Below are positions 12,841 through 29,466 of a stretch of DNA of 64,000 bases, one piece after another. Numbering within the stretch: the stretch's first letter is position 1; each line of letters opens with the position of its first letter. Under the pieces are notes generated by a model. The model was not told the origin of the DNA, made no database searches, and was given only the letters and a program-made list of their open reading frames with translations. A program made the position numbers and the translations under genes. Location: assembly GCF_000258175.1 (NCBI RefSeq), contig NZ_JH636049.1:3139482-3203481 (forward strand), in the 5' to 3' direction. Source of the stretch: Saccharomonospora xinjiangensis XJ-54. Its GTDB lineage: Bacteria > Actinomycetota > Actinomycetes > Mycobacteriales > Pseudonocardiaceae.

Positions 12841-12917
12841 GCCCCCGTAGCCCAATCGGCAGAGGCAATCGACTTAAAATCGACGCAGTGCGGGTTCGAG
12901 TCCCGTCGGGGGCACCA
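12841..12917 (+). tRNA. tRNA with anticodon UAA, short variable loop (attachment site)
   Basis: A 77-nt tRNA including encoded CCA. The acceptor stem is GCCCCCG/CGGGGGC, the T arm GCGGG-TTCGAGT-CCCGT, the anticodon loop CTTAAAA with anticodon TAA at 12875-12877 (leucine by anticodon), and the discriminator A. The variable region is only about 5 nt, whereas bacterial leucine tRNAs normally have a long variable arm; the top anticodon-stem pair is A-C. The 3' part is the AICE attachment site. Leucine identity is thus tentative. Confidence 0.85.
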
Positions 12918-12931
12918 ACGGTGCTGGTCGG
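12877..12931 (+). repeat. attL: 55-bp direct repeat, left end of the AICE
   Basis: Identical to 23135-23189. It begins at the third anticodon base, covers the 3' half of the tRNA including CCA, and runs 14 bp past it. The integrase stop codon is 27 bp further on. Confidence 0.95.
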
Positions 12932-12957
12932 AGCCTTCCCGGCGGAACGGCCGAAGA

Positions 12958-14154
12958 TCAGATCCCCGGTTTACCCCCGGAATTGGGTCGGTAGTCGCTC
13001 AGCGCGAGCGACTCCAACGCCTCTGCCGCCCGAGGCGACGCCACTCCGCGACCGAGGTACACATCCTGCGTCATGGATGGCTTGGCGTGACCAAGCTGGT
13101 CCGCGATCTCACGCGCGGTGAGCTTCGCCTCGTCGAGGATCGTCGCCGCCGTCTTGCGGAACACGTGCGACGTCACCCACGCGAAGTCACCACTGCCACG
13201 AGCCTCCCGGAAGGCACGTCGGGTGTTGGAGGGATCCCGCAGACCGCCAAGCGAATCCGGGAACACCGGACTCGCGGGTGGCCGGTTCTCGGCAACCGCT
13301 GTCGCATACCGCCGACGGAGCATCTCCAACGCCCACACAGGCACCACCAGCGTCCGTTCGCTTGACTGCGTCTTCGGAGGCGTCCGCCGTAGCCCGGCAC
13401 CCCGGACCCGGACAACGGTCCATTCAATGCGCACGAGGCCTCGATCGAGGTCGATATCCTCCCAGTACAGTGCGAGCGCCTCACCGATCCGGACGCCCGT
13501 CGCCATCATGAACCGCGTCAGATCGGGCAAATCGTGTCGCCGTGCCGTCGGATCCTGTTCGAGCTGGGCAAGCCACTCGCGGCGCTCTGCCGGAGTGAGC
13601 GCACGCGACCGCTTCCGTGCTCCACCTTCGATGGGCTCGATGTCTCGGACCGGGTTCCCCGTGATCGCTCCATGACGAGCGGCGTAGCGAAGGATGCCGC
13701 TGACAACCGCGCGAGCCGTGATCGCATGAGCAGCGCTCGTTTGCGTGATCAACTCCGGGAAGAAGCGATCGAGCCGCGGCACGGTCACCTCCGACAGCCG
13801 CAACTCACCGAGCGCCGGGAGAACGTGGTTCTTCAACATGCTGCGGTAGTTGTCCAAGGTACCCACGGCCCGTTCCCCCGCAGCGACACGACGCTCCTGC
13901 CAAGCAAGCCAGAGTTCGGCGACCGTGCTGAAACGGGTCTTCGCCGTGATCTCACTGCCACTCGGAGTCTGTAGCTCCTGCTGAATCGCGCGCTTCAGCG
14001 CCTGCTCAGCCTTCGCCTTGCTCCTGCCCACACGTTCGACGTCCCGGACCCGACCGTCATAGCCGCGAAAACTCGCACGAGCACGGAAGCCGGTCTTCGT
14101 CGGAGAAAAACGGATCTTCCCGTGGGTACCGATCTCCAACGGCGGACGCCCCAT
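12958..14154 (-). CDS. int: Tyrosine-type integrase of the AICE
   Basis: A 398-residue phage-type integrase for site-specific recombination at the tRNA gene. An N-terminal arm-binding part (residues 1-70) and a SAM-like core-binding domain (ca. 75-165) precede the catalytic domain with Arg222 (ATGVRIGEALALYW), Lys261, His330-x-x-Arg333 (SHVFRKTAA), His356 (QLGHAKPS) and Tyr366 (QDVYLGRG). ATG 14154 overlaps the xis stop (ATGA) and follows GGGGGAG; GTG 14160 is close by. The C-terminus faces attL. Confidence 0.96.
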   Translation of the reverse strand: MGRPPLEIGTHGKIRFSPTKTGFRARASFRGYDGRVRDVERVGRSKAKAEQALKRAIQQELQTPSGSEITAKTRFSTVAELWLAWQERRVAAGERAVGTLDNYRSMLKNHVLPALGELRLSEVTVPRLDRFFPELITQTSAAHAITARAVVSGILRYAARHGAITGNPVRDIEPIEGGARKRSRALTPAERREWLAQLEQDPTARRHDLPDLTRFMMATGVRIGEALALYWEDIDLDRGLVRIEWTVVRVRGAGLRRTPPKTQSSERTLVVPVWALEMLRRRYATAVAENRPPASPVFPDSLGGLRDPSNTRRAFREARGSGDFAWVTSHVFRKTAATILDEAKLTAREIADQLGHAKPSMTQDVYLGRGVASPRAAEALESLALSDYRPNSGGKPGI

Positions 14155-14330
14155 CAGCACTCCCCCTGCTGCGCGACCCAGGTTTCGACGTCTTCGGGTC
14201 GGTAGCGGACGTATTTGCCGATGCGTCGGCCTTGTGGTCCGTAGCCTTTGGTGCGCCATTGGTAGAGGGTGTTGACGGGGACGCCGAGGTAGTCGGCGAG
14301 GTCGGTGATGGTCCAGAGCTTCGAGCTCAT
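14154..14330 (-). CDS. xis: Excisionase, MerR-like helix-turn-helix
   Basis: A 58-residue protein beginning MSSKLWTITDLADYLGVP and containing NTLYQWRTKGYGPQGRRIGKY, the winged helix-turn-helix of AlpA/Xis-type excisionases (helix_turn_helix_17). It should direct the integrase towards excision. It overlaps both neighbours by ATGA: its start with the rep stop, and its stop with the int start. Such a rep-xis-int coupling ties excision to replication in AICEs. Confidence 0.93.
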   Translation of the reverse strand: MSSKLWTITDLADYLGVPVNTLYQWRTKGYGPQGRRIGKYVRYRPEDVETWVAQQGEC

Positions 14331-15658
14331 CGGGTGTTCTCCTCTCGGTACTTCTGCTGTCGTTGGGTGCGGAGTCGTTCGGCGATGCCGAGGGCGAGTT
14401 CGCGTTCAGCGTCGTTGCGGTAGCCGGAGCCGGTGAACGCCCAGTCGTTGACGACGAGCACGTTCTCGGGGTCGAGGTCGAGGCGGTCGAGGGCCTCAGC
14501 CAGGCGGAAGGCCCGCCGGTCGGCGCGAATCTGCTTGAAGGTGGTGGAGTAGGCGCGGGACTTGGTGAGGAAGTGGCCGCGGAATCCGAGCATGTGCGCC
14601 CACCTGCGCAGGTTCAGCTCCGCGTACTCGTCAAGGCCGCCGAGGTCCCAGCAGGTGCGGATCATGCGCCGGTGATGCTCGGAGATCCGCAGGTGGTCAA
14701 TGTCGAGTTCGGAACGGAGGGGGTGGTCGGCGCCTTCGACGGTGCCGGTGCCTTTGGTGGCGTACTTGGCGATGTAGCCCGCCAACGCCCGTTCCCCGAT
14801 CCCCTCGCCGGTCTCAGTGTCCTCATGTTCGACGGGGCGGATGTCGAGCTGGTCGCCCCACATCAGCGACAACCGGGTGCCGTTGGGGCGTGTGGTGGTC
14901 ACGACCGTGCCACCGGCCGCCGCCGTGATCGCATCGGAAAGCAAGGCGCTGGAAGCCCACGAGGGAGCGCGGTCGGTGGGTCCGTCAGGGCCGTCGAGGC
15001 GCACCAGGGCGTGGAAGTGCACCAGCCCGCGCCGCTGGTACTCGGCGACCTTGCTGTACGACAGCCGGGCGTGGTCGGGGAAGTCCCGGACCCGTAGACC
15101 CGCGCGGGAGGCGAGCTCACGTCGCAGCCGCACCGTGAAGCGGTGCCACAGCTTCCCGGCATGTGCCTGCCAGAGCACCGCGGCTTCGTAGTCGTAGGTC
15201 TCGGGATCGAGGGGGGTGCCGAGGCGGGGGTCGTCCTCGCGGTAGTGGGAGTGGCCGCAGCCGCAAGGCATCACCCGACCCCGCCGAGACACCCGCCGAG
15301 TGTGGACCCGACCGAAGCTCGGTGCGGTCAGGGTGACGAACACCCGAGGATGCTCCGTCACCGCCTCCGGAACCCCCTTGTCGCCGCCGCACAGGCCCGC
15401 CCGGATCAAATGGAACGCATCAGCCGCGTAACGGTCCGAGCAGGCCGGGCACACGGTCTCGCGCCGGTTGCCGCACGGAGCGAAGATGCTGCCCCCGTAG
15501 TGATGCACCACAAGCCCCGTAGAGGCATCACGAAGCTGATGCGCACCGGTCAGCCGGATCGGCCGAGCACAACCGTTGACGGACATCACTTTCTCGCGCC
15601 AGGTCTTGTAGTCCGCCGCCCGCAAACGAGCGGCAAGACGATCGTCCAGCGTCAGCAC
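14327..15658 (-). CDS. AICE replication initiator (RepSA-like)
   Basis: A 443-residue initiator of the rolling-circle type used by pSAM2-like elements. It shows a zinc-type CPACSDRYAADAF, a possible second cluster MPCGCGHSHY, the HUH-like RRGLVHFHALVRLD (His-hydrophobic-His) and the downstream GYIAKYATKGTG with candidate nicking tyrosines. It should nick a double-strand origin in the element. GTG 15658 was chosen because AAAGGAGG lies 10 nt upstream. The stop overlaps xis. Confidence 0.9.
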   Translation of the reverse strand: MLTLDDRLAARLRAADYKTWREKVMSVNGCARPIRLTGAHQLRDASTGLVVHHYGGSIFAPCGNRRETVCPACSDRYAADAFHLIRAGLCGGDKGVPEAVTEHPRVFVTLTAPSFGRVHTRRVSRRGRVMPCGCGHSHYREDDPRLGTPLDPETYDYEAAVLWQAHAGKLWHRFTVRLRRELASRAGLRVRDFPDHARLSYSKVAEYQRRGLVHFHALVRLDGPDGPTDRAPSWASSALLSDAITAAAGGTVVTTTRPNGTRLSLMWGDQLDIRPVEHEDTETGEGIGERALAGYIAKYATKGTGTVEGADHPLRSELDIDHLRISEHHRRMIRTCWDLGGLDEYAELNLRRWAHMLGFRGHFLTKSRAYSTTFKQIRADRRAFRLAEALDRLDLDPENVLVVNDWAFTGSGYRNDAERELALGIAERLRTQRQQKYREENTR

Positions 15659-15757
15659 GATGTGAGGTCCTCCTTTCAGGCATGAGAAAGGGGGCGAAGC
15701 GCACACCGCGAGTCGATGTGTGCCCCGCCCCCCAAGGGAGTCAGCGAGTTCGGGTGA

Positions 15758-16687
15758 TCAAGCAGGCGCGGGGTGGTACCCGTTCACCGTGGTGTTCAGC
15801 TCTTCCACTAGCGCGGTCACCATCTGCTCTGGCAGCGCGACCCGTTGAGTGATGTCCTCAGCGGTCACCTGGCGTCCCTGCTGATGCACCGACGTCGCCA
15901 GGCCGGTCACGGTGTCCCGCAGCGAACCCGGCAACTTCCCCAACACGGGAGCCTTACGAGGCGGTGCCGGTGCCAGTCGAGGCGCAGACGCCAACGTCGA
16001 TGCCGTTGCTGGCTCAGGCTCCGAGACCACCGGCTTCGGCTCCGGTGTTGCTGGTTCCGGTGCTGGCTTCCGCGTCGGTTCGGGTTCCGGTGTGGTTGTC
16101 GCCTCGTGGTGGTCGGCCTGGGCGTAGACGGCGAGGACGATCTCGCGTTGCCGGGCCTGGATGACCGGGATGACTTCGGCGATGCCGTAGACGATGACCG
16201 GGATGATCGCGTGCACCGCCAGCGACCCGAGGTTGAACCGCTCCCACCGGCCTTGCGCCAGCGGCATGAGTTGCGGGAGGACGTTCATCGCCAACGTCGA
16301 TCCAAGGAGCACGTGTTTGAGCCGCGACCACCAGCGGTGATCCGGTTCGACGCCGTGGGACAGGATCACCGATTCGAAGTTCAGCAGAGTGATCAGCAAG
16401 CCCGCGAACATCGGCTCCACCGTCCACGCGGCCCACCACAACGGATCAGCCGGAGTGGTGCCCTCCGAGAGGAACGCGTGGACCCCTTCGGTGGTATAGA
16501 CCAGGCCGAGGGCGAGGAAGAACCACAAGCCGAGCAGTGTCCTTCGTCCCCGCCGTTCCAGCTCGACGGCCTGCAAGTCAGGGTCACGGACCAGGCCCCG
16601 CAGGCGTCGAGCCTCGGAGATGCGTTTGCCGAGCTTGCGCACCCGCCGAGTGCGGCCGGAGGGGGTGCGGTCGTCTGCGGGTGACAC
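15758..16687 (-). CDS. DUF2637-type membrane protein (AICE spread-type protein)
   Basis: A 309-residue membrane protein. A basic N-terminus (residues 1-48) is followed by hydrophobic segments near LLGLWFFLALGLVYTTEGVHA, MFAGLLITLLNFESVIL and LAVHAIIPVIVYGIAEVIPV, then a long Pro/Glu/Lys/Thr linker and a small helical C-terminal domain (DTVTGLATSVHQQGRQVTAE). It resembles DUF2637 proteins common on AICEs, often linked with intramycelial spread; the role here is inferred from context. GTG 16687 has AGGAGA just upstream. Confidence 0.8.
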   Translation of the reverse strand: MSPADDRTPSGRTRRVRKLGKRISEARRLRGLVRDPDLQAVELERRGRRTLLGLWFFLALGLVYTTEGVHAFLSEGTTPADPLWWAAWTVEPMFAGLLITLLNFESVILSHGVEPDHRWWSRLKHVLLGSTLAMNVLPQLMPLAQGRWERFNLGSLAVHAIIPVIVYGIAEVIPVIQARQREIVLAVYAQADHHEATTTPEPEPTRKPAPEPATPEPKPVVSEPEPATASTLASAPRLAPAPPRKAPVLGKLPGSLRDTVTGLATSVHQQGRQVTAEDITQRVALPEQMVTALVEELNTTVNGYHPAPA

Positions 16688-16697
16688 GATTTTTCTC

Positions 16698-16871
16698 CTA
16701 TTCGCTGGGTTTGAGCAGGGCGAACAAGCCCTTGACCAGGACGAGCAGCACCAGGCCGATCGCGATGGCCCAGGGTGGACTGATCAGCCACACCACCCCG
16801 AGGACGGCCAGCACCATCAGCAGAACCAGGAGGCTGATCAGGACGCCTTTGCCGGTGAGATGGATCTGCAT
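16698..16871 (-). CDS. Small two-helix membrane protein
   Basis: A 57-residue protein starting MQIHLTGKGVLISLLVLLM, with two hydrophobic segments separated by SPPWA and a short basic end (LKPSE). GGAAGGAA lies 9 bases before the ATG. It overlaps the 3' end of the GGDEF gene by 34 bp in another frame. Small membrane proteins of this type are usual beside the DUF2637 gene on AICEs; function unknown. Confidence 0.75.
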   Translation of the reverse strand: MQIHLTGKGVLISLLVLLMVLAVLGVVWLISPPWAIAIGLVLLVLVKGLFALLKPSE

Positions 16872-17428
16872 TTCAGTTGTTCCTTCCGTGTGGAGTTGTG
16901 CGTGTGTTTGTCGCCGTACATGCGGTCATCCGCCGACGCGAGCAGCGCCGACAGATCCGCGGATTCGCTCGGGGCTGTGATGACCCCGAGCGCCATGGAT
17001 GCCGTGATCGGTTGGCCCTCGACCTCATCCAGCGCCGCAACAGCGGCCCGGTAGGTGTCGAGCCGTCGCGCGGCGTGGTCGGGGGTGTCACAGGGGATGA
17101 GGACGGCGAACTCGTCGCCGTGCAGCCGCACCACCAGCTCCCTCCGGCATGCTGTGCGCTGGAGGATCGCGGCGACCTCGATCAAGACGCGGTCGCCGAA
17201 GCGATGGCCGTGGGTGTCGTTGATGGCCTTGAACCCGTTCATGTCCCCGAGCGCCACCGCCACCAGAGGTGAACGGCGACGAGCCCAAGCGAACGCCTCC
17301 GCCAGCGCGAGCCGGTTGCCCAAGCCGGTGAGTGGATCGGTGCGCAGCTTGCGCCGCAGCCGGTAGGCACCGAAGCCGGTGCTCAGGGTGGTGGTTGTGG
17401 TGACGACGAGTGCGATTTCTGCCAGCAT
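16838..17428 (-). CDS. GGDEF-domain protein with variant HGDEF motif
   Basis: A 196-residue protein: a short hydrophobic N-terminus (residues 1-21), then a GGDEF fold starting DPLTGLGNRLAL, with the metal/nucleotide motif DMNGFKAINDTHGHRFGD (62-79) and RLHGDEFAVLIP (101-112). The signature is HGDEF at 103-107, the first Gly being replaced by His, and no RxxD inhibitory site is seen just before it. Diguanylate cyclases make c-di-GMP; whether this variant is active is open. Carried inside the transfer operon. Confidence 0.87.
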   Translation of the reverse strand: MLAEIALVVTTTTTLSTGFGAYRLRRKLRTDPLTGLGNRLALAEAFAWARRRSPLVAVALGDMNGFKAINDTHGHRFGDRVLIEVAAILQRTACRRELVVRLHGDEFAVLIPCDTPDHAARRLDTYRAAVAALDEVEGQPITASMALGVITAPSESADLSALLASADDRMYGDKHTHNSTRKEQLKCRSISPAKAS

Positions 17429-17515
17429 GGAACCTGCCTCTTCTGTAGGGGTAGGCCCGCCCGGAAGTCTCTGCCAGGGGAAACCGGGCGGGCCGTTTCG
17501 TGTGATCGGTGTGGA

Positions 17516-17944
17516 TCAGTCGGTCAGGTCGTGTCCGAGGTGTGAGGTCAACGCGGCTGCCTGCTGCATTTCCCTCGTGAGCTGGTCGGTAGTGGCGCGG
17601 CACCACACGAGATTGGCGATGGCTTGCCTTGCGGTGTGTGCGCCGGGGCGGTCGCGGCGGTCGTCGTAGAGGCTGGCCTGATCTGCATGGTGTTCCAGCG
17701 CCGTGATGAGCTGCTGGAAGAGCTGGTCGAGGCCGCTGACCGCCGTGGCCACGTTCGACAGCACCCAATCCACGGTGGGTGCGTTGGGCAGTGTCTGCGT
17801 ACCGTTGCCGGGGCCGGTGGCGTTGTTGAGGTAGCGGACCAGCTCCCGCAACCCCCGCGCCGCTTCTAGCACCGTGTCCGGCCCATGGGGGCCGTCGTAG
17901 GGCAGCCGGTGATCAAGCAGTTCGGACAGGCTGTGCATGGTCAT
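17516..17944 (-). CDS. Helical protein of unknown function (AICE)
   Basis: A 142-residue, mostly helical protein starting MTMHSLSELLDHRLPYDGPH. It contains LREL/LDQLFQQLITALEHHADQ-type amphipathic helices and no recognised motif. AAGGAG lies 5-6 bases before the first ATG. It sits 25 bp after the translocase stop, in the same operon. Confidence 0.7.
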   Translation of the reverse strand: MTMHSLSELLDHRLPYDGPHGPDTVLEAARGLRELVRYLNNATGPGNGTQTLPNAPTVDWVLSNVATAVSGLDQLFQQLITALEHHADQASLYDDRRDRPGAHTARQAIANLVWCRATTDQLTREMQQAAALTSHLGHDLTD

Positions 17945-17969
17945 GGTTGGCTCCTTGCTGTGTCGGTTG

Positions 17970-19469
17970 TCAGGCGATGTCTTCGTCGCCTTCGGTCCAT
18001 TCGTCTTCCGGGATCTCCTCGACGTCCTCGTCCTCGACTTCCCAGGCGGTGAAATCGACCGCGTCGGCCGTGGCGGAGGACTCAGCCGGTGGCGTCGCCG
18101 TAGTGGTGGTGTCGCGGTGGAGGGGGATGACGGCCGCGTCGGTGCTGGTGCAGAACCGCACGAGCTCGGCGATGTCGTCATCGGAGGTGTAGGCGGCACG
18201 GACCCGCAGGGGTTCGCGTCGGCCGTCTTTCTTCACATACGCCACACCGGGCAGGTAGGCGGGAATCTTGTCCGCCAGTGCGCCCATGTCCCGCATGCCT
18301 TCCCCAAGGCACATGTCCACATAGGACGCCGAGGCGAGCCGCAGAGCGATACGGGTGGGGAACAAACCCCGCATCGGGACGGTGTTCTTGTCCGGTTCCT
18401 GCGTCGCCGCGATCACTCGCCCGAGCACCGCCCGGTACTGCGTCAAGGCCTTGCTCAGCAGTGGTTCGGCGGCACGGACGATGTCGCGGGAGCCGTAGGC
18501 GGTCAGCGCTGCCAACTCGTCGATGATCAGCACTTCCAGTGGTGTGTCCGCCGACGGGGTGGCCGTGCGGTGGCCGCCGCGACCGAGCTGGAGTTTCGTG
18601 CGGTCGAGGGTTTCGACGTACTCGGCCAGCAGCGCCAGGCCGTCACGCTCGTTGTCGGCGAAGCGGTGAAACAGCGGCCGTCCGGCGCTGAACTCCATGC
18701 CGCCCTTCGGGTCGATCACCCACAACCGCGCATGACCAGCCCTCAGCAGCGGAGCCAGGGTGCGCAGCAGCGCCCACAACCACGAGCCCTTACCCGCGCC
18801 GGTCTCCCCGCCCAGGAGGATGTGCAGATCCTTGTCGTGCAGATTCAGCCCGAAGTCGCGGCCGTACTCATCCCGCCCGATCACCAGCTTGCCCAAGTCA
18901 ACCTCGTCGGCCGTCTCGCCCAGCTCAGGCAAGGGGACGAGCATCTCGTCGAACGGCTCCCGCCGCTGGAAATCCAAAGCGATCTTTCCTGGCTTGAGCA
19001 GCCGCACCGCCGCCGCACGAGCCTTGAACGCCATGGCCAACCGACCCAAAACCTCTTCGAAGTCCTCCGGTTGCTGCCCCTTCGCCAGGCGGATGTGCAG
19101 GGAATCCCACACCCACGCCGACCGCACCCGCAGCAGCTTCGGCACCAGCGTGTTCCCGCGGTGGTCGGTCGTGGTGAGGTTGCAGGCGAAGACCACCCGC
19201 TGCCACTGGCGTTGGTAGACCAGCCAGCGCCGCCACCACGCCCGCAGCAGCCGACCGGCGAACCGGTCAAACGTCGGCTGATCCAGCAGCCGCCACGACA
19301 CCCCAGCCACCACCGCCACACCAGCCGCCATGAGCACCGCCTGATACCCAGCCCACAAGCCCGCCGAGTTCAGCACCACCACCGAGCCCGTCGATCGTGG
19401 ATGCCGCGCCACAAACCGCGCCGCCGACCGGACCGGCGTCCGATGCACGCCCACTCGCGTGTCCCGCAT
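17970..19469 (-). CDS. FtsK/SpoIIIE-type DNA translocase (TraSA-like transfer protein)
   Basis: A 499-residue conjugal translocase. The N-terminus has one or two membrane segments (residues ~30-60), followed by the motor domain with Walker A GGETGAGKG (220-228), VIDPKGGMEF and Walker B VLIIDELAAL (~312-321), then ATQEPDKNT and RIALRLAS typical of FtsK motors. TraSA-like proteins move double-stranded DNA between mycelia and bind a cis site (clt). The C-terminus is very acidic. ATG 19469 follows GGGAGGTGAG; ATG 19490 is an alternative. Confidence 0.92.
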   Translation of the reverse strand: MRDTRVGVHRTPVRSAARFVARHPRSTGSVVVLNSAGLWAGYQAVLMAAGVAVVAGVSWRLLDQPTFDRFAGRLLRAWWRRWLVYQRQWQRVVFACNLTTTDHRGNTLVPKLLRVRSAWVWDSLHIRLAKGQQPEDFEEVLGRLAMAFKARAAAVRLLKPGKIALDFQRREPFDEMLVPLPELGETADEVDLGKLVIGRDEYGRDFGLNLHDKDLHILLGGETGAGKGSWLWALLRTLAPLLRAGHARLWVIDPKGGMEFSAGRPLFHRFADNERDGLALLAEYVETLDRTKLQLGRGGHRTATPSADTPLEVLIIDELAALTAYGSRDIVRAAEPLLSKALTQYRAVLGRVIAATQEPDKNTVPMRGLFPTRIALRLASASYVDMCLGEGMRDMGALADKIPAYLPGVAYVKKDGRREPLRVRAAYTSDDDIAELVRFCTSTDAAVIPLHRDTTTTATPPAESSATADAVDFTAWEVEDEDVEEIPEDEWTEGDEDIA

Positions 19470-19567
19470 TCCTCGTCTCACCTCCCACATCGCGCACAAA
19501 AGAAGGGGCACCGAGCCCGCTGCAAAGGGAGGCCCGATGCCCCGTGCCGAGTCGTTATGTCGCCGGA

Positions 19568-19747
19568 TCAGTTCCGGCGCTGCGTCATCTCCAGGTGCGC
19601 GACCAGATCACCCACCGTGTTCCGCAGCTTGTTCAGCGACGTCCCCATCCCCTTCGGGACCCCGAGCTGACGCAACGTGGACACCAGCGCAAGCATCGTC
19701 GCGTCGATCCGCCGCACCGTGGAGTGCACACCATCACCCCGCGCCAT
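19568..19747 (-). CDS. Small helical protein (AICE)
   Basis: A 59-residue protein starting MARGDGVHSTVRRIDATML and ending HLEMTQRRN. Its ATG overlaps the stop of the 83-residue gene (ATGA), which supports translation. No domain recognised. Confidence 0.6.
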   Translation of the reverse strand: MARGDGVHSTVRRIDATMLALVSTLRQLGVPKGMGTSLNKLRNTVGDLVAHLEMTQRRN

Positions 19748-19998
19748 CACTTCTTGTATCCCTTCGCCACATTCCCGCCCGACTTCTTACCGATCTCACC
19801 ACGCACCATCCGCAACGCCGACCGAACCTTCCCAGCCAGATCAGTCGCGGTGTCGAAATCCTTCTTCTCGACAATGTCACCTTCCAGAAACTCAACCCGA
19901 TCCAAATCCCGGTCGAGTTCGTCAATCGTGTCCGCGATCCGCTTCAACCGCTGCACCGCCGCAGTATTACGCCGCAACGCACCCTTACGCAGATCCAC
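19747..19998 (-). CDS. Small coiled-coil protein (AICE)
   Basis: An 83-residue charged protein (IADTIDELDRDLDRVEFLEG, then KVRSALRMVRGEIGKKSGG) likely to form a helical hairpin. GTG 19998 follows GGGAGGTTGTGAGG. It is coupled by ATGA to the next small gene. Function unknown. Confidence 0.65.
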   Translation of the reverse strand: MDLRKGALRRNTAAVQRLKRIADTIDELDRDLDRVEFLEGDIVEKKDFDTATDLAGKVRSALRMVRGEIGKKSGGNVAKGYKK

Positions 19999-20091
19999 CC
20001 CTCACAACCTCCCTTCCAACAACCGTCACACCGTGCCCCACCACCAAGCAACACGAACCGTGGAAACCCACCGTGACCACCTCCTGCCAGG

Positions 20092-20202
20092 TCACACCTC
20101 CTCGGGCAGCGCCGAGGAACGGAATTTCTTGCAGTACTGATCACCCGAGTGCCGATACAACCAGCCATCGCAATGACACGCCGGGCAATACGCCAACGAC
20201 AA
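20092..20202 (-). CDS. Possible 36-residue zinc-ribbon-like protein (AICE)
   Basis: A short reading frame starting at TTG and giving MSLAYCPACHCDGWLYRHSG, then DQYCKKF. The CPAC...C...H...C arrangement suggests a small metal-binding ribbon. A near-perfect ribosome site, AAGGGGGTGAT, lies a few bases upstream. It fills the gap between the SCO3933-type gene and the small coiled-coil gene, on the same strand. It is short, so the call is moderate. Confidence 0.5.
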   Translation of the reverse strand: MSLAYCPACHCDGWLYRHSGDQYCKKFRSSALPEEV

Positions 20203-20378
20203 AACCCATCACCCCCTTCCCAAAGGTATATAACGCCGAATAGAACAGTTGCCAAAACAACTATTTTTGGCATAGCTCGGCCCACTCTGGAATTATCAAA
20301 CACCGAAATAGCGCCCCCGCCCGACTCGAACGGGCCGCCCACCACAACAGAGGAAGGGCAAAAAGGAAGACTTTCCAG

Positions 20379-20717
20379 TCAGCGATCCAGCGGCTTGACG
20401 CCGGCCGCGCTAAAAGCGATCCCAGAGATGACCTCGTCCTTATCGTTCTTGAACGAATACGGGTTGACTCGCGCGTCCACCAGCTCGACCAGGTCGCCTT
20501 CCTCCAGGCCCTCACCGGGGTCGGTGTCCAGGGTCACGCGAATCTCCTCACCCTTCTCGCCCGCGACCTTCGCGAACAGCGACATCACGAACTTCGCCGC
20601 CCCGTCGCGGTCGGTCACCACGATCTCGCGCCCCGCGTCGTCCTTGCGCATCTTCATCGTCGGAGGCTCGACCACTCGCAACCGAAAGGCCGCCAGGTTC
20701 ACCGGAATGTTTCGCAT
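20379..20717 (-). CDS. SCO3933-family regulatory-type protein
   Basis: A 112-residue protein beginning MRNIPVNLAAFRLRVVEPP, the mark of the SCO3933 family present in pSAM2/SLP1-like AICEs. It is the first gene of the long minus-strand operon and reads away from the GntR gene; both promoters lie in the shared 20718-20834 region with repressor-type repeats. AGGGAG precedes the start (ATG 20717, or GTG 20720). Exact role unknown. Confidence 0.82.
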   Translation of the reverse strand: MRNIPVNLAAFRLRVVEPPTMKMRKDDAGREIVVTDRDGAAKFVMSLFAKVAGEKGEEIRVTLDTDPGEGLEEGDLVELVDARVNPYSFKNDKDEVISGIAFSAAGVKPLDR

Positions 20718-20732
20718 CACGCTTGCTCCCTA

Positions 20733-20750
20733 GTTTGTAAGTTTGCTTAC
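20733..20750. promoter_or_regulatory. Probable GntR operator, site 1
   Basis: GTTTGTAAG (20733-20741) runs into the palindrome GTAAG-TTTG-CTTAC (20737-20750), just upstream of the SCO3933-type gene. It shares GTTTGCTTAC with site 2, consistent with repression of the AICE operon by the adjacent GntR protein. Confidence 0.7.
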
Positions 20751-20767
20751 CAACTGCTCCGACAGTA

Positions 20768-20786
20768 CACCCAGCTACTCTGGGTG
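20768..20786. promoter_or_regulatory. Small hairpin between the two operators
   Basis: CACCCAG-CTACT-CTGGGTG, a 7-bp perfect stem with a 5-base loop, lies midway between the divergent genes. It may be a further protein-binding site or a transcript hairpin; no T tract follows. Confidence 0.45.
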
Positions 20787-20794
20787 CGCAAGGG

Positions 20795-20808
20795 GTTTGC
20801 TTACAAAC
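20795..20808. promoter_or_regulatory. Probable GntR operator, site 2
   Basis: GTTTG-CTTA-CAAAC, a palindrome sharing GTTTGCTTAC with site 1, lies 27-40 bp upstream of the GntR start. Autoregulation is the simplest reading. Confidence 0.7.
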
Positions 20809-20834
20809 TTCTGAAGGCGCAGTACGATGCGGTT

Positions 20835-21659
20835 ATGAGCCCCCGACGGACAGCCGCGCGGCAGCCGATCGCATTACGAATCGCTGATGATCTGCGCATC
20901 AAGATCGAGACAGGTGAGCTGAGGGCAGGGGACGATCTGCCGACGTTGCAGCAGCTCGCCGAGCAGTACGAGTGCTCAACGGTGACCGCCCGTGGGGCGA
21001 TTGCCTTGCTCAAGCAACAGGGGTTGATCCTCGGTGGTCGGGGGCATGCCGCGCGAGTTCGACCGATGCCGCGTCGTATCGAGCGTTCGAACCTACGTCA
21101 CCAGCTGGAGAAGGATCTCGTTCGCCAGCCCGAGGAAGTCCGAGCCACCAAGGGGCTTGCCGAGATCGACATGGGTGGTCCGGTCGCCGACTTCGAGATC
21201 GACGCCGCGTACTCGATCGTCAGCGCCGACCAGGGACTTGCCGATGCCTTCAGGTTGCCGGAGGGGACTTCGCTCTTACGTCGCGAGTTCACTCACCGCG
21301 ACAAGCGCACAGGCGCACTCGAAGCGTGGTCGGTGTCATGGATGCCTTGTGACCTCATAAAGCCGAATCCGGCGATCTCCGACCCTGCGAACAAGGCGTG
21401 GCCCGGGGGCACGATGCACCAGCTCTACACCGTCGGTGTCGAGGTCGCTGAGGTGATCGATCAGGTAACGGCGGAAATGCCGACAACGGTCGAAGCGCAG
21501 GAGTGGCAGCTCTCCGAAGGTGTGCCGCTGATGTGGACACGCCGGATCTCGATCGACACCGACGAGCGTGTCGTCGAAGTCAGCGACGCTCAGTATCCCG
21601 CCGATCGCACCATGCTCAGCTTCCACACACCCCTGGCCCGATGGGAAGACACCAAATAA
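20835..21659 (+). CDS. GntR/HutC-family repressor (KorSA-like)
   Basis: A 274-residue regulator. The N-terminal winged helix has ALRIADDLRIKIETGELRAG and LPTLQQLAEQYECSTVTARG; the C-terminal part is a UTRA-type effector domain (FRLPEGTSLLRREFTH, ending YPADRTMLSFHTPLARWED). On pSAM2-like elements the KorSA protein represses transfer/replication genes. ATG 20835 is used. Its stop overlaps the next start as TAATG, so it is translationally coupled to a glycosyltransferase. Confidence 0.92.
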   Translation: MSPRRTAARQPIALRIADDLRIKIETGELRAGDDLPTLQQLAEQYECSTVTARGAIALLKQQGLILGGRGHAARVRPMPRRIERSNLRHQLEKDLVRQPEEVRATKGLAEIDMGGPVADFEIDAAYSIVSADQGLADAFRLPEGTSLLRREFTHRDKRTGALEAWSVSWMPCDLIKPNPAISDPANKAWPGGTMHQLYTVGVEVAEVIDQVTAEMPTTVEAQEWQLSEGVPLMWTRRISIDTDERVVEVSDAQYPADRTMLSFHTPLARWEDTK

Positions 21660-22498
21660 TGACTCGCCGCGTTTCAATCATCACGGCCGCATACGCGCCG
21701 CTCAGCGACTACTTCAAAGCCACGATCGAGAGCGTGGCCGCCCAGGAACTCCCGGACGGATGGGAGCTTGAATGGCTCGTGCAGGAGGACGGCGAGCACC
21801 CCGACCTCGAAGGCATGGTCGCAGGGGTTCCTGGAATCAAGTACTCGGCCAACAACGCACACACGGGCATCAGCGCCACGCGCAACCTCGCATTGACTCG
21901 TGCAACTGGTGACATCGTGCAGGTCCTCGATCACGACGACGTACTTCTGCCGGATGCGCTGAAGACCTTGCTACCTCGGTTCGACGAACCGGGTGTTCAC
22001 TGGGTGGTCGGCCAGGCCGACGACCTGCTTCCGGATGGAAATCGGCGCGAGTACGAATCCGCGCTGCCCTTCGGACGGGTCGCCGCAGGTGCTGTGAACA
22101 CGTGGGCGATCGAACACGGCGGCAACTGGCCCATCCACTGTGCTGGCTTGCTCATGCGCACCCAGCTCGTGCGTGCCTGTGGTGGATGGGGAGGCGTGCC
22201 CGTTGACGACGACCTCGTAATGTTCTCCGCCTTGTCCGAGATCGCTGACGGATACAACGACCCTGCCACGACATGGCTCTACCGAATCCACGAACGGCAG
22301 ACACACAAGTCGGCCCAGTGGCGCGAACGCAGTTCGGACGGCCGTCGAGTCGCACTGCAACGAGTCCAAGCCGTACGAGCCACCGGACTAGCCATCACGG
22401 GCAACCCCGCCGACAGTCCAAGCCTCGATGAGTTCGAAGTGGGCCCCGCGGCCAAGGACGGTGCTGACGGCCGCCCGTGGTGGAAGGACCAGGGCTAA
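21659..22498 (+). CDS. Family 2 glycosyltransferase (AICE cargo)
   Basis: A 279-residue GT-A fold transferase. It begins TRRVSIITAAYAPLSDYFKA, with GISATRNLALTRATGDIVQV and the DxD-type VLDHDDVLLPD, then GGWGGVPVDDDLVMFSAL as the acceptor-side motif. There is no membrane segment, so it acts in the cytoplasm on an unknown acceptor. It forms a two-gene unit with the GntR regulator (TAATG overlap) and is not part of the transfer machinery. Confidence 0.88.
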   Translation: MTRRVSIITAAYAPLSDYFKATIESVAAQELPDGWELEWLVQEDGEHPDLEGMVAGVPGIKYSANNAHTGISATRNLALTRATGDIVQVLDHDDVLLPDALKTLLPRFDEPGVHWVVGQADDLLPDGNRREYESALPFGRVAAGAVNTWAIEHGGNWPIHCAGLLMRTQLVRACGGWGGVPVDDDLVMFSALSEIADGYNDPATTWLYRIHERQTHKSAQWRERSSDGRRVALQRVQAVRATGLAITGNPADSPSLDEFEVGPAAKDGADGRPWWKDQG

Positions 22499-22550
22499 CG
22501 CCCACACATGCCAGGCCACCCAGCCGCACAGCTTCCAGCCCGAAGCCGCA

Positions 22551-22790
22551 GCGCAGCGCGTGTGTTCAAACTTTCTTCTCTTGTTCAAGGGCGGCCCCGC
22601 CGGGGCCGCCTGCCTACTGCCTGTGGGTCCGCGCCAGCGGGACGCCGGGCGTGCGGCTGACGCCGGTCCCGCCGTCCCGCACGCGGCCCCGGGAGCGGAA
22701 GGCAGGCGACCGGGAACCACGGCGGGACCGCAGTGAGGGAAGAAGATGCCCTCGCCGGGCGGGCAGGTCTCCGGGATGGCCGGGGAAAGT
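22551..22790. repeat. Direct-repeat block A, inside the AICE right end
   Basis: This noncoding block is repeated at 23281-23512, outside attR. The first ~140 bp differ at only a few positions; the rest diverges with small indels. It contains a GC hairpin GGCGGCCCC-GCC-GGGGCCGCC (22590-22610). The 22499-23134 region has no convincing gene. Confidence 0.88.
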
Positions 22791-22822
22791 GCCGGCACTT
22801 CCGGTTCGGTGGTGGTCCGGTA

Positions 22823-22969
22823 GGTGTTCCATCCCGTCTGACCTCCCCGAGGGCTATCACGCCGCGTCAAGGGGGCAAGCCTGGCAACGACAGCCGCCGG
22901 TCAACGAGCAAGGTTGCCCCCTTGACACAGCGTGATCGGGCTACGCCAGGTCAGACGGGATGGAACACC
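22823..22969. repeat. Two-part inverted repeat near the AICE right end
   Basis: Outer arms of 22 bp (22823-22844 and 22948-22969) are perfect complements. Inner arms of 23 bp (22856-22878 and 22914-22936) match at 21 positions and contain TCAAGGGGGCAA. The segments between outer and inner arms are both 11 bp, and the centre is 35 bp. The symmetric layout suits a replication origin, transfer (clt) site or RNA hairpin; the role is unknown. Confidence 0.9.
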
Positions 22970-23134
22970 AGGCGACCCGCGTGCGCAGGAGAAGACGAGT
23001 TCCCCGGCTTTCCCCCGGAAATCACCGCGATGCGACGACAACCGTTGATAAAGGTCCAGCGTTAGCACTTGCTAATGGTGCAGGTAGTGTCAAGTGGTGG
23101 CAGCGGACGACAAACATTGATCATCGCTGCCTTG

Positions 23135-23189
23135 AAATCGACGCAGTGCGGGTTCGAGTCCCGTCGGGGGCACCAACGGTGCTGGTCGG
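23135..23189 (+). repeat. attR: 55-bp direct repeat, right end of the AICE
   Basis: Identical to 12877-12931. The sequence 5' of it does not complete a tRNA (the stem cannot form), so only the left copy belongs to a functional tRNA gene. Confidence 0.95.
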
Positions 23190-23280
23190 TGAGTTGGGGT
23201 CGTGGTGGAAGCGACCAGCGCTGACCTGACCACCAAGCTGGGCATCGCTCATGCCCCATCGGCCACGGGTTGTTGTTCCA

Positions 23281-23512
23281 GCACAGCGCGTGTGTTTAAA
23301 CTTTCTTCTCTTGTTCAAGGGCGGCCCCGCCGGGGCCGCCTGCCTACTGCCTGTGGGTCCGCGCCAGCGGGACGCCAGGCGTGCGGCTGACGCCGGTCCC
23401 GCCGCCCCGCACGCGGACCCAGGAGCGGAACCAGCAACCACGGTGGGACCGTCGAGCAGTAAAAGAGATGCCCTCGCCGGGCGCGCAGGCTCCGGGATGG
23501 CTGGGAGGGTCC
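23281..23512. repeat. Direct-repeat block B, outside attR
   Basis: A second copy of block A lying 92 bp beyond attR, with the same GC hairpin (23320-23340). No integrase or further att copy was found to its right, so it looks like a remnant of an earlier related element. The stretch from 23190 to 23700 has no convincing gene. Confidence 0.85.
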
Positions 23513-23700
23513 GGCGGTTCTGGTTGGCAGACTGGTGATGCGTAGTGACACTATCCACTATGGACATCTAACGGGTTTGGGGGCACGTCCGTATCCGTTG
23601 ATGCCGCCTGTCCTGGCCTTGTTTGCTGTCTCGGAGAGCGGCTGGCGGCGAGCTTCCTGCGTCAGGACTGCTGCGGGGAGGGGCGCGCTATCGTCGGGGC

Positions 23701-24138
23701 ATGACTGGCGAGACCACGGCGTGCGCCGACTGCGGAGCGAGCGGGCGTTTCGGCACCTGCGGCGAGCTTTTCAGGGTATTGCTCGCCCTCGACCACGAAC
23801 GCCGGCAACCGTGGGCTGCGTTCCACAGCGTCAACGTGGCCTGTTACCTCGTGCAGCACCGGTCGCAGACGCAGGCACACGCTCTCGCCGGGCAGTGGCA
23901 GATCGTCACGACGTTCGTCGCGGACGGACTGGATGCCGTTCACCAGCTCACGGCCGATCGGGTGCGTCAGAATCGGCGCGGGGCACGCCCGTGGCTCGCC
24001 GGGGACCCGCCGCCACCGCTGACGGCGACGGTGACCATTGAGGATGTTTCCGTCGATGGCACGTTCCCCGCAGAAGGTTACGAACAGCGCATGCGCCGAT
24101 GGGCCGAGTCGATGACGGTGGGGACTCACTCGGTCTGA
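23701..24138 (+). CDS. DUF5946 family protein
   Basis: A 145-residue protein starting MTGETTACADCGASGRFGTC and continuing ELFRVLLALDHERRQPW and HSVNVACYLVQHRSQTQAHA. The CxxC...C and the conserved NVACYLVQH helix match DUF5946 proteins. The cysteines suggest a metal site. Function unknown. The coding sequence ends WAESMTVGTHSV. Confidence 0.75.
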   Translation: MTGETTACADCGASGRFGTCGELFRVLLALDHERRQPWAAFHSVNVACYLVQHRSQTQAHALAGQWQIVTTFVADGLDAVHQLTADRVRQNRRGARPWLAGDPPPPLTATVTIEDVSVDGTFPAEGYEQRMRRWAESMTVGTHSV

Positions 24139-24353
24139 CCTTCGCGGCACACCTGACCGCCTGATGGCGCGGCGTCACGGTACCCAGCCGAGCACGACAC
24201 AGCACTCTGCCTGACGAGTGGGACAGCCCTGTGGCCCCAATTTGGCTTGGTCGCGACGTCATCAGACGACGGGTGATCGCCGAGCTGGTTTGCACGCATA
24301 TCGGTGCAGCAGTAACTGCGATCCTGGAGTTTGAAGCGGCTTGCGGCGGGCCG

Positions 24354-24809: not shown

Positions 24810-24828
24810 CTCCTCACCTGATGGGCAC

Positions 24829-25296: not shown

Positions 25297-25564
25297 AACT
25301 GGACCCTAACCCACCGCACCCATGCTGGAGCCGACAAGATAATTTCTTGCCGCCCCGGATCACGACGTATCGATGTATCCGACCGCGATGGCGAAGCAGC
25401 CTACGAAGGAAACAGGATCACGAGAGGCCACGGTGATCGTGAGCCGCTTGCGGTGACGCGTGGCTGCGCAGTGCCGGTCAAGCGTTCGTCGCTCGCCGTG
25501 GATCGGACGTTGGTGAGGTGGCTGCTCCACCGGCCTCCGTCGCGAGCGGGTGTCCTCACCGGGA

Positions 25565-26137: not shown

Positions 26138-26145
26138 AACCGGGA

Positions 26146-26162
26146 GTCTAGCAGTGCTAGAC
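26146..26162. promoter_or_regulatory. TetR operator 1
   Basis: GTCTAGCAGTGCTAGAC, a 17-bp palindrome with perfect 8-bp arms, 9 bp upstream of the tetR start. Core TCTAGC-TGCTAGA is shared with the second site. Confidence 0.82.
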
Positions 26163-26197
26163 ATTCTAATTTCGCTATGATTAGCTCTTGCTATGAA

Positions 26198-26214
26198 ATC
26201 TAGCGATGCTAGAT
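26198..26214. promoter_or_regulatory. TetR operator 2
   Basis: ATCTAGCGATGCTAGAT, with one arm mismatch, 22 bp upstream of the DUF4267 start and just before its GGAGG. Centre-to-centre distance to operator 1 is 52 bp. Confidence 0.82.
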
Positions 26215-26610: not shown

Positions 26611-26762
26611 GTGGCTGCTTCGGTCGTCGTGTCGGGCGGGTTCGCTTCGGTGTCAAGGAAAGGCGCGGATGGCCGTGGTCTCGGCCTGCGCATGGCTGCG
26701 GCGGGAGGGTGTGGGAGCAGGGCTGAACAATCTTGCCGGATCTCGTCGGCCACGATGATCGT

Positions 26763-27594
26763 ATGGAACAGAGACCATTGCCGTTGCCGGACTCGCCGGA
26801 ACTTGACGTGCTACCCACTGAGTCGCACAGGCTGCTGTACGCGTACCTCTTCGAGCGACGTGATGATCCTCCGACGATGCGGGAGATCCGGGCATATCTC
26901 GCGGAGCGGCTTGGGGAGGCTCCGGCGCAGACGGACCGGCGTGTGCGTGACTTACGTGATCACTTCGATGTGCCAGCGGTCCGGCTTGGGGCTGACTATC
27001 GGTACAGGCTGACCGGATGGTCGAAGGTCAAGAAAGCCGGGTCGAGGAAAGGTGTCAGCAAGCGGGTGCGTGCCGAGGTTCTCGCTCCTCAGCGCTGCGC
27101 GCAGTGCGGACGTCAGCCGCTGGAACATGGTGTCGTCCTGGTCGTTGATCATAAGGTTCCCCGGGAATGGGGAGGTGCCGACGATATCGAGAATCTGCAG
27201 CCTCTATGTGAGGATTGCAATTCCGGCAAAAAAGCTTTCTATGCCACATATGATGAATATGCCGAAGAAATCGCGGCGGCATCATTGCATCCAGAACCAC
27301 ATGGCCGGATTGGGGGAGCTACTAAAAGCCTTCCATGGTAGCTGGGTTCCTTCCAGTCTGATTGGTGTCGTCGCATCCATGCAGCAGTATCAGGAAGACT
27401 GGCAAAAACGTCTTCGAGAGCTTCGTCTCCTGGGGTGGGAGATAAGGACGCGGAGGTCAAAAGATCCGATCACTGGCCGGACCAACACCTGGTATCGAGC
27501 CGAGCGTTGGGAGCCGTGGCCGGAAGGCTCAATTCGCGCAGAGGTGGCGAGGCGGGACCCGTCGAACAAGCGTAATAAGAACGGAAAGCGCTGA
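26763..27594 (+). pseudogene. HNH restriction-type endonuclease interrupted by a frameshift
   Basis: The first frame (26763-27341) encodes a winged-helix-like part (residues 20-85) and an HNH nuclease, CAQCGRQ...VVDHKVPREWGGADDIENLQPLCEDCNSGKK, then breaks after PHGRIG with a short out-of-frame tail. The +1 frame continues ELLKAFHGSWVPSSLIGVV and goes on to 27594 (WQKRLRELRLLGWEI, WYRAERWEPWPEGS). Removing one G from the G5 run at 27312-27316 joins both into one ~276-residue protein. The HNH core is intact in the truncated product. It is convergent with a C5 methyltransferase, so a restriction-modification pair is likely. Confidence 0.83.
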
Positions 27595-27647: not shown

Positions 27648-28886
27648 CTAACTGATACGCGCCCGGTGCTTAAGGAAGAGATCGTGACGAGCATGATCTT
27701 CTTGTCCGATGAAGGCTTTGAAGCTGCCAAGTCTGTACCGGGTCTTAGTTCCCTCTGTGCGGATCTCGACCTCGAAGTCCCGGCTGAGGAGGCCGATGCG
27801 GCGTTCGAGCTCAGCCCGGTCATCGAGGTCGGCTGACTTCATTAGCCGTTCCGGGGTCACGAAGCCCGAGGATGCCCGGAGTGTCTTATAAATCGGATCG
27901 TGCTCGGTATCGTCTACGGTTTTGGGAGTTCCTTCGTGGTGGAATGCGCGCATGATCGCGGAGCCCACTGCGTGTGCGACTGGTGGAGGGAAGGCGTTGC
28001 CGATTTGCCGGTAACGGGAGGTCTTACGGCCTGTGAATTCCCATGTGTATTCATCCGACCAGCCCTGAATTCTGGCCACCATCTCGCAGGTGAGCTTCGG
28101 TTTGAAGTCGTCAGATTCCTTGGCTGACGGGGGAGCATCAGCTATACCGAGGGCGTCAACGCCTAGCGCTGCCCAGGCTCGCTTCGCCCGAGTCGGTCCG
28201 AGGTCGGCACCACCGTGCTTCTTCGATCCTCCTACGATTGTCGGAGCGATCTTATCTGCCCTCTTTGCCCATTCCTTGGCCCCGTGCCAGCCATTAGATG
28301 CCATCAGGTCGATCAGCGTCTCCCCGACGGTGGGCGCGGACGACCTGGGTTCGGGCCAGCGGAAATATGGGGCATCCTCGGGTTTTAGAGCGACCAAGAT
28401 GAACCGAGGTCGGAGCTGAGGTACACCGAAATCAGAAGCATGGAGAAGCCTCCACTCCGCTACATAGCCAAACTGAGTCAACCGGTCTAAAACGTGCTGC
28501 CGGTAGCCAGTGAAGCGCGGCATGCTCAAGCCGCGCACGTTCTCGAGTAGCAATGCCCGTGGTCGCACAACAGCGACTTGTTCGACAGCCCAGGCGAAGA
28601 GGTCACGTTCGTCGCTTGCCCCTAGTTGCCTGCCTGCGATGGAGAACGGCGGGCACGGCACACCGCCGGCGAGTAGCGCAACTCCCTCGTAATCAGCCGG
28701 GTCCCACACGGACAGATCGGCGACGTCTCCTTCGGCAACTTTCCAGGTGGAGCGGTTGGTCCGGAGGGTGTTGCATGCGTTCTCGTCGAGTTCTATCGCC
28801 AGCGCATGCTCGAACCCAGCTTTCTCCAGGCCCAACGCTTGCCCACCGGCGCCAGCGCAGATCTCGACCACTTCGTGCTTTGTCAT
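27648..28886 (-). CDS. DNA (cytosine-5-)-methyltransferase
   Basis: A 412-residue C5 methyltransferase. Motif I is EICAGAGGQALGLEKAGF, motif IV GGVPCPPFS with catalytic Cys78, motif VI ALLLENVRG, motif VIII QLRPRFILVA, and motifs IX-X EMVARIQGWSDEY and RYRQIGNAFPPPVAHAVG. A C-terminal extension of ~80 residues follows. GGAGAG precedes ATG 28886. The target recognition region is short (residues ~180-280), so specificity cannot be read. GC content and codon use are lower-GC than the core genes, a sign of transfer. Confidence 0.95.
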   Translation of the reverse strand: MTKHEVVEICAGAGGQALGLEKAGFEHALAIELDENACNTLRTNRSTWKVAEGDVADLSVWDPADYEGVALLAGGVPCPPFSIAGRQLGASDERDLFAWAVEQVAVVRPRALLLENVRGLSMPRFTGYRQHVLDRLTQFGYVAEWRLLHASDFGVPQLRPRFILVALKPEDAPYFRWPEPRSSAPTVGETLIDLMASNGWHGAKEWAKRADKIAPTIVGGSKKHGGADLGPTRAKRAWAALGVDALGIADAPPSAKESDDFKPKLTCEMVARIQGWSDEYTWEFTGRKTSRYRQIGNAFPPPVAHAVGSAIMRAFHHEGTPKTVDDTEHDPIYKTLRASSGFVTPERLMKSADLDDRAELERRIGLLSRDFEVEIRTEGTKTRYRLGSFKAFIGQEDHARHDLFLKHRARIS

Positions 28887-28935: not shown

Positions 28936-29466
28936 ATGCCGACGGCGGAGCTAGGGACGGTGTTGGATGTGGGAGCGGTGTCGCAGGTTGGTGGAGGCCG
29001 TCCGCAGCAGCATGTTCGTGGGCAGACCAGATGTCCTGAGGCGATGGATGAGGGGCGGTCTCGCAATATGCGAGCCAACCGGCGGGCGAACACGAAGCCT
29101 GAAGTTCTGCTGCGTAGCCAACTGCACCGGCTGGGTTACAGGTTCCGCAAGGATCACAGGCTTGATCTCCCGACCGGCGTTCGTGTACGGCCTGACATCG
29201 TCTTTACGCGACACAAAGTTGCTGTGTTCGTTGACGGCTGCTTCTGGCACGTGTGTCCGGAGCATGGTCGTCAACCAACTCGCAACGAGTGGTACTGGAC
29301 TCCGAAGCTACGGCGGAACGTCGAGCGGGACCGACGTGCGGACGTGGCTCTGTCGGCGGCCGGTTGGGGTGTCGTTCGCGTCTGGGAGCACGAAACGATT
29401 TCGGATGCCGTGGCGCGAGTGACAGAAGCTATCGAACATAAGTTCGATTCTAGGTGTCCTGCCTGA
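28936..29466 (+). CDS. vsr: Very short patch repair (Vsr) endonuclease
   Basis: A Vsr nuclease that nicks at T:G mismatches arising from deamination of 5-methylcytosine. It shows NMRANRRANTKPEVLLRSQL, LDLPTGVRVRPDIVFTRHKV with the catalytic Asp, VFVDGCFWHVCPEHG, and YWTPKLRRNVERD. The pairing with a divergent C5 methyltransferase explains its role. Start uncertain: ATG 28936 gives 176 residues with a weak N-terminus; ATG 29044 gives 140 residues closer to the usual length. Confidence 0.93.
   Translation: MPTAELGTVLDVGAVSQVGGGRPQQHVRGQTRCPEAMDEGRSRNMRANRRANTKPEVLLRSQLHRLGYRFRKDHRLDLPTGVRVRPDIVFTRHKVAVFVDGCFWHVCPEHGRQPTRNEWYWTPKLRRNVERDRRADVALSAAGWGVVRVWEHETISDAVARVTEAIEHKFDSRCPA

Follow-up and report, generated by a model that had tools for sequence, protein, structure and literature searches.

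The 64,000-nucleotide stretch of the Saccharomonospora xinjiangensis XJ-54 genome analysed here (the window; contig NZ_JH636049.1, positions 3,139,482 to 3,203,481) carries an actinomycete integrative and conjugative element (AICE) with a RepSA-type initiator, and just inside the right end of that element lies what is probably its replication origin. The AICE itself is typical. The new part is the origin and its scars: a predicted nick placed by natural deletions, a putative single-strand origin (sso) that covaries on one strand, and a loose coupling to Rep. Taken whole, we consider it likely that a RepSA-type AICE is nicked on its minus strand at CTTG^A (caret, cut) within a double-strand origin (dso), uses an sso hairpin, and has relatives bearing scars made by RepSA. 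Such an origin would explain both the conversion of a single-stranded intermediate and the decay of these elements, and vectors for Amycolatopsis and its relatives could use the tract as a module. No concrete origin for RepSA elements of the host family was found in the accessible parts of the open-licence literature, a search that the key older pSAM2 papers fall outside.

The origin is a noncoding tract of about 430 bp (22549-22980) inside attR, absent from the earlier note on this DNA, as are the GGDEF gene and a partial second origin beyond attR. A repeat search returned a 152-nt direct repeat with copies inside and outside attR, and an inverted repeat with 61-nt arms. A second AICE in this genome has the tract at 94% identity and a Rep at about 55%, and whole or partial matches to the tract (E ≤0.001) occur in 103 of 150 host-family genomes and 39 of 46 genera; a plasmid collection gave no match. 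Among 87 listed tract matches (E ≤2.2e-18, palindrome reverse self-matches excluded), 42 have a RepSA gene from a list of 150 within 20 kb; in every one of these the tract is 5′ of rep, 2-12 kb off and opposite in strand, although these placements are not independent because gene order is conserved. One count weighs against the origin reading. No RepSA on that list, which took in 150 of at least as many genes, lies within 20 kb of the other 45 listed copies, and 20 of these, when fetched, comprised 3 with RepSA, 4 with integrase pieces only and 13 with neither. A search for an alternative Rep near orphan tracts, which was not exhaustive, took in 10 open reading frames (ORFs) at 9 loci; nine had Pfam families, none a replication initiator, and one had no family. 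Of 31 AICE loci surveyed, 21 have att repeats of 35-74 bp at Leu, Lys, Arg, Pro, Val or Asn tRNAs, and in nine of these 132-179 bp separate the tract from attR; in the other twelve the gap is 0.3-6.2 kb and other DNA fills it.

The left half of the tract looks like a dso. Across 44 copies its consensus is a hairpin, GGCGGCCCC-nnn-GGGGCCGCC, whose variants still pair, followed by CTTGA on the minus strand; TTTC-n-TCAAG is present in 41. A conserved nick sequence beside an inverted repeat is what a rolling-circle dso has. One exact form of this dso occurs in 52 stretches of an 84,980-species collection, 50 of which we take from the record names to be Pseudonocardiaceae; the remaining two are Parafrankia soli and an uncultured Corynebacteriales metagenome-assembled genome. 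In 29 of the 52 an sso hairpin follows within 2.5 kb downstream.

Deletions in AICE relics of relatives give indirect evidence on the predicted nick. The scar survey covered 155 dso-hairpin sites plus L132, whose hairpin variant escaped the search pattern, and counted 15 close-by fusions of an integrase to the tract. Eight of these (L131, L132, L217, L220, L255, L282, L321 and L334) are cut at CTTG^A with the integrase frame running on; they share one origin position but differ in integrase codon. Six of the eight, from four genera, keep the full tract with its sso hairpin (six genera if the two weak cases are counted). In the closest intact integrases the join reads CTCGA or CTGGA for L217, L282, L321, L255 and L132. 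The CTTG must derive from the dso, because the scars hold T where intact integrases have C or G, and the idea that CTTGA had met CTTGA was rejected on the same readings. CTNGA stands at the join in six of seven placeable scars (five in the closest homologue), against a background of 183 in 40,881 positions (0.45%) in 30 integrase ORFs. A second, larger draw of genomes, done once the idea was in place, supplied L282, L321 and L334 (at least 152 places, 83 loci fetched). It added 83 sites, 71 of them intact; of the other 12, four were counted as real cuts. All four have lost the dso block as far as CTTG^A, and L287, with a full tract, is one of them. These natural deletions suggest that RepSA nicks at CTTG^A, and RepSA probably makes them, linking its dso nick with the similar CTNG^A sequences found in int.

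Several points tell against that reading. The search pattern needs TCAAGG, and cuts inside this motif are invisible to it. L255 and L334 are weak, with a dso hairpin only (13.7 and 12.0 bits) and no sso; the integrase match of L255 has E 0.0084, and that of L334 begins at least 92 residues on. Seven of the 15 fusions (L307, L108, L315, L325, L147, L330 and L328) are broken elsewhere, keeping the dso block, with the integrase match ending 10-163 nt left of the nick; five more lie 287-606 nt away. At the L131 join the window's int has CTNGA and the closest homologue (L128) does not, that of L220 reads TCCATG in its closest integrase, and L334 is not placeable. Any odds drawn from joins against background are post hoc and include the weak scars. 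L238 and L287 also end at CTTG^A, and no fusion partner was recognised for either.

The scars could also be ordinary microhomology deletions in which RepSA had no part. CTTGA shares four of five bases with CTCGA and CTGGA, and the seven fusions broken elsewhere suit such a process. Still, eight cuts (six clear, two weak) that share a position but vary in integrase codon, from six genera (four for the clear cuts), would require a lesion there even so, and we regard plain microhomology as rather unlikely.

Other candidate scars were set aside. L239 and L240, picked up by a BLAST match beginning at the nick, proved degenerate and were not counted, and L241-L244, among seven BLAST-start candidates fetched, yielded no dso-hairpin site lacking the TTTC block. 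L209 and L275-L277 fit the pattern without a tract, L208 and L231 likewise lack one, and L278 and L280 have no module match. L228, L230, L337, L347 and L353 are variant dso's, of which only L228 has a strong tract match, and L151 is a region edge. Four genomes of one genus, g58 (L209, L275, L276 and L277), have in common CTTGACTGA(T/A)GAGAGGTC by a GGCGCC hairpin, with the rest of the tract absent; this is perhaps another type of dso.

The right half of the tract is a long hairpin maintained on one strand. In an alignment of 34 copies (33 distinct) its two helices show strong covariation: 98.1% of cells are paired, against 84.1% when shuffled, and 23 pairs have changed on both sides. The covariation score is 0.418, against 0.165 shuffled and at most 0.104 when slid. 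Two subtypes swap GACCT/AGGTC for GCCTGA/TCAGGC and CAAGGGGGC/GCCCCCTTG for CGGGGCCGC/GCGGCTCCG. Ungapped non-Watson-Crick cells, read on the minus strand, comprise 74 G.T, 4 A.C and 22 others, and the G.T bias points to the minus strand in 30 of the 34 sequences, with four ties and none against. Because G.T so outnumbers A.C there, we take the minus strand, which is also the sense strand of rep, as the one that folds. Single-stranded DNA folding gives it -63.3 kcal/mol (z -10.0), and the plus strand -60.8 (z -8.6). A noncoding, long hairpin maintained on one strand is what an sso should be, and we read this half as a putative sso.

Hairpin type and Rep are loosely coupled, largely uncoupled. 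Comparing 25 elements in 300 pairs gives 11 pairs with Rep more than 75% identical and different hairpin types, and 14 with Rep below 60% and hairpins more than 85% identical. Hairpin similarity correlates with genus (Mantel r 0.32, p 0.001), and both types are present inside a single genus. On the other side, some correlation of hairpin with Rep identity remains, a weak one (Mantel r 0.19, p 0.006). A covariance model of the hairpin matched 3 of 394 genomes of the class (the host's own, a second from that family and a third from a different family), a count made under strict filters in a draw whose share of the family is not known.

The element that carries this origin appears, from its sequence, to be an ordinary and complete-looking RepSA-type AICE, and every hallmark that can be read from sequence supports this. 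As a class, AICEs have a tyrosine or serine integrase and a replication initiator that is RepSA, RepAM or Prim-Pol. The 55-bp direct repeat described in the earlier note (12877-12931 and 23135-23189) is exact and, as claimed there, has the third base of the anticodon as its first base; the tRNA is tRNA-Leu(UAA) (anticodon 12875-12877). Stretched to 12873/23131, it matches at 58 of 59 bases. A 30-base piece of the repeat occurs at two places only in the window (≤3 mismatches; none in 100 shuffles), so that no further attR lies right of 23189 at that threshold, and in a whole-genome search with the tRNA region the remaining matches are 76-83% identical. Between the cores, Pfam and NCBIfam identify the full gene set that had been described: a tyrosine integrase, Xis, RepSA, a single FtsK/SpoIIIE-like Tra and a GntR-type repressor. 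The integrase contains GVRIGEAL, SHVFRK, LGHAK and DVYLGRG, presumably its catalytic stretches, and RepSA has VHFHALV and GYIAKYATK (two Tyr); RepSA scores 481 bits against NF041486, under that model's cut-off of 700. GC content is 65.3% in the element, 68.6% in the left flank, 63.2% at 23190-29500 and 68.4% from 30 kb onward.

Could the element be a defective relic, immobile now? What is left of AICEs at this tRNA in relatives is pieces of int, and the right flank is itself degraded. The core ORFs, however, have no stop or frameshift, in keeping with the earlier view that no core gene looks broken; homologues are full-length (int 1-383/398, rep 2-459/459, tra 13-505/513, and xis 1-58/58 in L035), the att cores are identical and the origin is complete, which makes a relic quite unlikely. 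Of the consecutive ATGA overlaps proposed before for rep, xis and int, the first stands (rep and xis share the 4-bp ATGA) and the second does not, as xis and int share one base, in TGATG. A coupling of replication, excision and integration through these overlapping genes is plausible.

Genus-mates show this site without the element. The left flank is found in all 12 genomes of the genus, its own included, and 10 of the 11 genus-mates are covered 11-18 kb beyond the same tRNA. None of these ten has the element there, as the suggested comparison with related genomes required. Six (G003, G001, G004, G009, G008 and G007) have no match to its proteins, although G007 keeps a 71% DNA trace of int; four (G010, G005, G006 and G011) have integrase pieces only. 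The exact 55-bp attB is kept in G009. In G002, covered for 1.5 kb beyond the tRNA, element DNA is absent within that distance. The window's right flank stands directly beside the tRNA in none of the ten; in G003 the counterpart of 23687-24117 is about 2.2 kb from the tRNA (78% identical), and the first gene common to five of the ten is at about 34.8 kb of the window. No relative has that flank directly at attB because it is variable and resembles older AICE remains. In G006, an attR-like relic (L105 3998-4101, reverse complement coordinates) lies 2.4 kb past the tRNA; it matches the window's attR region, 23071-23174, at 82% identity and is a trace left at this site by a related element.

The tract itself can be read in other ways. 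Instead of being a DNA origin, it might encode a structured RNA, read leftward, with a regulatory role in replication or transfer. The hairpin could act as RNA, pairing maintained on one strand fits RNA as well as single-stranded DNA, and there is space for a promoter between 22980 and attR. Rfam returns no family for the tract at gathering score and nothing above chance, and deletions that end at one position by the dso hairpin point to a cut in DNA. A hairpin upstream of a hairpin-CTTGA on the same strand is also the usual sso-dso order, as far as the accessible text of PMC5037232 and PMC4595007 goes. We think an RNA very unlikely.

An origin nicked on the plus strand seems just as improbable. 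There the strand bears TTTCTTnnCTTG, which is like the pC194 origin, synthesis would run rightward, and the hairpin would not be the last part exposed. The plus-strand TTTCTTCTCTTG resembles TTTCTTATCTTGATA of the pC194 origin in the part of PMC7072734 consulted (Table A2), and the accessible text of PMC3218068 cites te Poele for a pC194-like nick in pSAM2. Against this, the plus-strand CTTG is present in only 19 of the 44 copies (TTTC-n-TCAAG in 41), the scars retain the hairpin and CTTG and lose the DNA beyond, and the G.T bias sits on the minus strand. Least probable is a cis-acting locus of transfer (clt) bound by Tra: the tract does lie beyond tra and is retained in compact elements, but a clt consists of short repeats, 22400-23600 holds no tandem repeats scoring ≥50 (very short ones would score lower), and the genome's 5.1-kb element, which has the tract, shows no match to the window's tra.

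On the origin reading, Int with Xis would excise the element between its 55-bp att cores. RepSA would then nick the minus strand at CTTG^A (22586/22585), beside the dso hairpin, and rolling-circle synthesis would run leftward through rep, xis, int and attP, reaching the sso last. The 61-nt-arm hairpin, last exposed, would prime the second strand, and attP would be re-formed first because it lies about 145 bp from the hairpin. By family, the FtsK-like Tra would transfer a double-stranded circle between cells, and GntR would repress transfer. More tentatively, and leaning slightly to doubt, we suggest that the sso-dso cassette is self-contained and swapped among Rep types by AICEs of the host family. 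RepSA would repeatedly join dso CTTG^A to int CTNG^A, destroying rep and int and leaving attL, sso, a re-formed dso core and attR, and a sister element could still replicate such rep-less relics and carry them along.

The 5.1-kb element (L031, C2 ~3551200-3556300), the second AICE of this genome, is a mini-AICE at tRNA-Lys with 74-bp att repeats; it holds int, rep, gntR and the origin tract, and is possibly mobilised in trans. Similar layouts occur in G001 (L037) and G004 (L038). Solo tracts also stand amid ordinary chromosomal genes (L133, L136, L137, L144, L145, L148 and L149), with no match to the proteins of the window's AICE within about 10 kb.

The element resembles pSAM2-type AICEs in its tRNA site, tyrosine integrase, Xis, RepSA, FtsK-like Tra, GntR and gene order, which in pSAM2 is rep-xis-int; it adds a GGDEF gene, a glycosyltransferase cargo and the family-specific origin tract by attR. 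The staphylococcal rolling-circle plasmids treated in PMC5037232 have, in the text available, dso-sso units more conserved than rep, with the sso upstream of the dso, host-specific yet promiscuous within the genus. The origin described here is likewise more conserved than rep and has its putative sso upstream, a likeness of layout and conservation, not of aligned sequence. It differs in belonging to an integrative element and in its covarying hairpin directly 5′ of CTTGA. ICEBs1 sso1, as far as PMC4595007 could be consulted, is an orientation-specific single-strand origin on an integrative element, as proposed here, but it is proven and lies downstream of oriT, whereas our putative hairpin lies upstream of the predicted nick, by attP. 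The pC194 origin (Table A2 of PMC7072734) shares CTTGA and a similar TTTCTT block on one strand; here the conserved CTTGA is on the other strand, beside the covarying hairpin. Accessible parts of PMC4170104, PMC4315094 and PMC13118837 were also drawn on.

Table 1. Positions of the element's genes, sites and origin parts, and of features in its right flank, within the window.
Feature	Position	Strand	Basis
tRNA-Leu(UAA), integration site	12841..12917	+	ARAGORN, Rfam RF00005
attL core, 55 bp	12877..12931	+	exact repeat
int, tyrosine recombinase, 398 aa	12958..14154	-	PF00589 1.9e-18
xis, helix-turn-helix excisionase-like, 58 aa	14154..14330	-	PF12728 (HTH_17) above cut-off; TIGR01764 below cut-off
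repSA, HUH-type initiator	14327..15706	-	PF20199 1.1e-154, 516 bits (cut-off 34)
Membrane protein, presumably SpdB-like	15758..16687	-	77-83% identical at same place in L032-L034; no Pfam match
Small membrane protein	16698..16871	-	conserved in L035, L039
GGDEF protein, motif RLHGDEF	16838..17428	-	PF00990 3.6e-31
141-aa ORF	17516..17941	-	no family match (Pfam, NCBIfam)
tra, FtsK/SpoIIIE-like translocase, GGETGAGKGS	17970..19511	-	PF01580 2.4e-07, 30.9 bits (cut-off 24)
Two small ORFs, conserved in AICEs	19568..19998	-	L035, L130
SCO3933-family-like protein	20379..20720	-	NF051478 4.1e-12, below cut-off
GntR/UTRA regulator, presumably KorSA-like	20835..21659	+	PF00392, PF07702
Family-2 glycosyltransferase, cargo	21659..22498	+	PF00535 4.3e-15
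Left half of origin, putative dso	22549..22735	-	alignment of 44 copies
CTTGA, predicted RepSA nick CTTG^A between 22586 and 22585	22585..22589	-	conservation, deletion scars
dso hairpin	22590..22610	-	varies in relatives, pairing kept
sso-like hairpin, 61-nt arms	22823..22969	-	inverted repeat, covariation, G.T bias
attR core, 55 bp	23135..23189	+	exact repeat
Partial second origin (dso, sso hairpin missing), CTTGA 23315-23319	23272..23534	-	profile match
HNH endonuclease, probable old AICE cargo	26733..27341	+	PF01844
C-5 cytosine methylase (Dcm)	27648..28883	-	PF00145
Vsr mismatch endonuclease	28999..29466	+	PF03852

Beyond attR, the DNA from 23190 to about 29500 is probably the remains of an older AICE. 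It holds a partial second origin and an HNH-Dcm-Vsr cluster, and in G143 the same cluster (68-73% DNA identity) sits inside an AICE, between the tract and attR.

The element's GGDEF protein has relatives in similar company. The motif RLHGDEF is present in 9 of 11 copies looked at (the window and 10 relatives), and for 6 of the 22 best homologues from the 150 genomes a listed RepSA gene follows on the same strand, 1.3-1.7 kb downstream. A maker of cyclic di-GMP borne by an AICE could link transfer to host development; the accessible open-licence literature searched gave no report of a link between GGDEF proteins or cyclic di-GMP and AICEs.

Two minor sequence features remain. Between the sso-like hairpin and attR lies a palindrome, TTAGCACTTGCTAA, at 23062-23075, a possible site for a regulator or an integrase arm. 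Far to the right, 56012-56334 holds short-period repeats within an ORF, apparently a tail rich in Gly, Gln, Pro and Phe.

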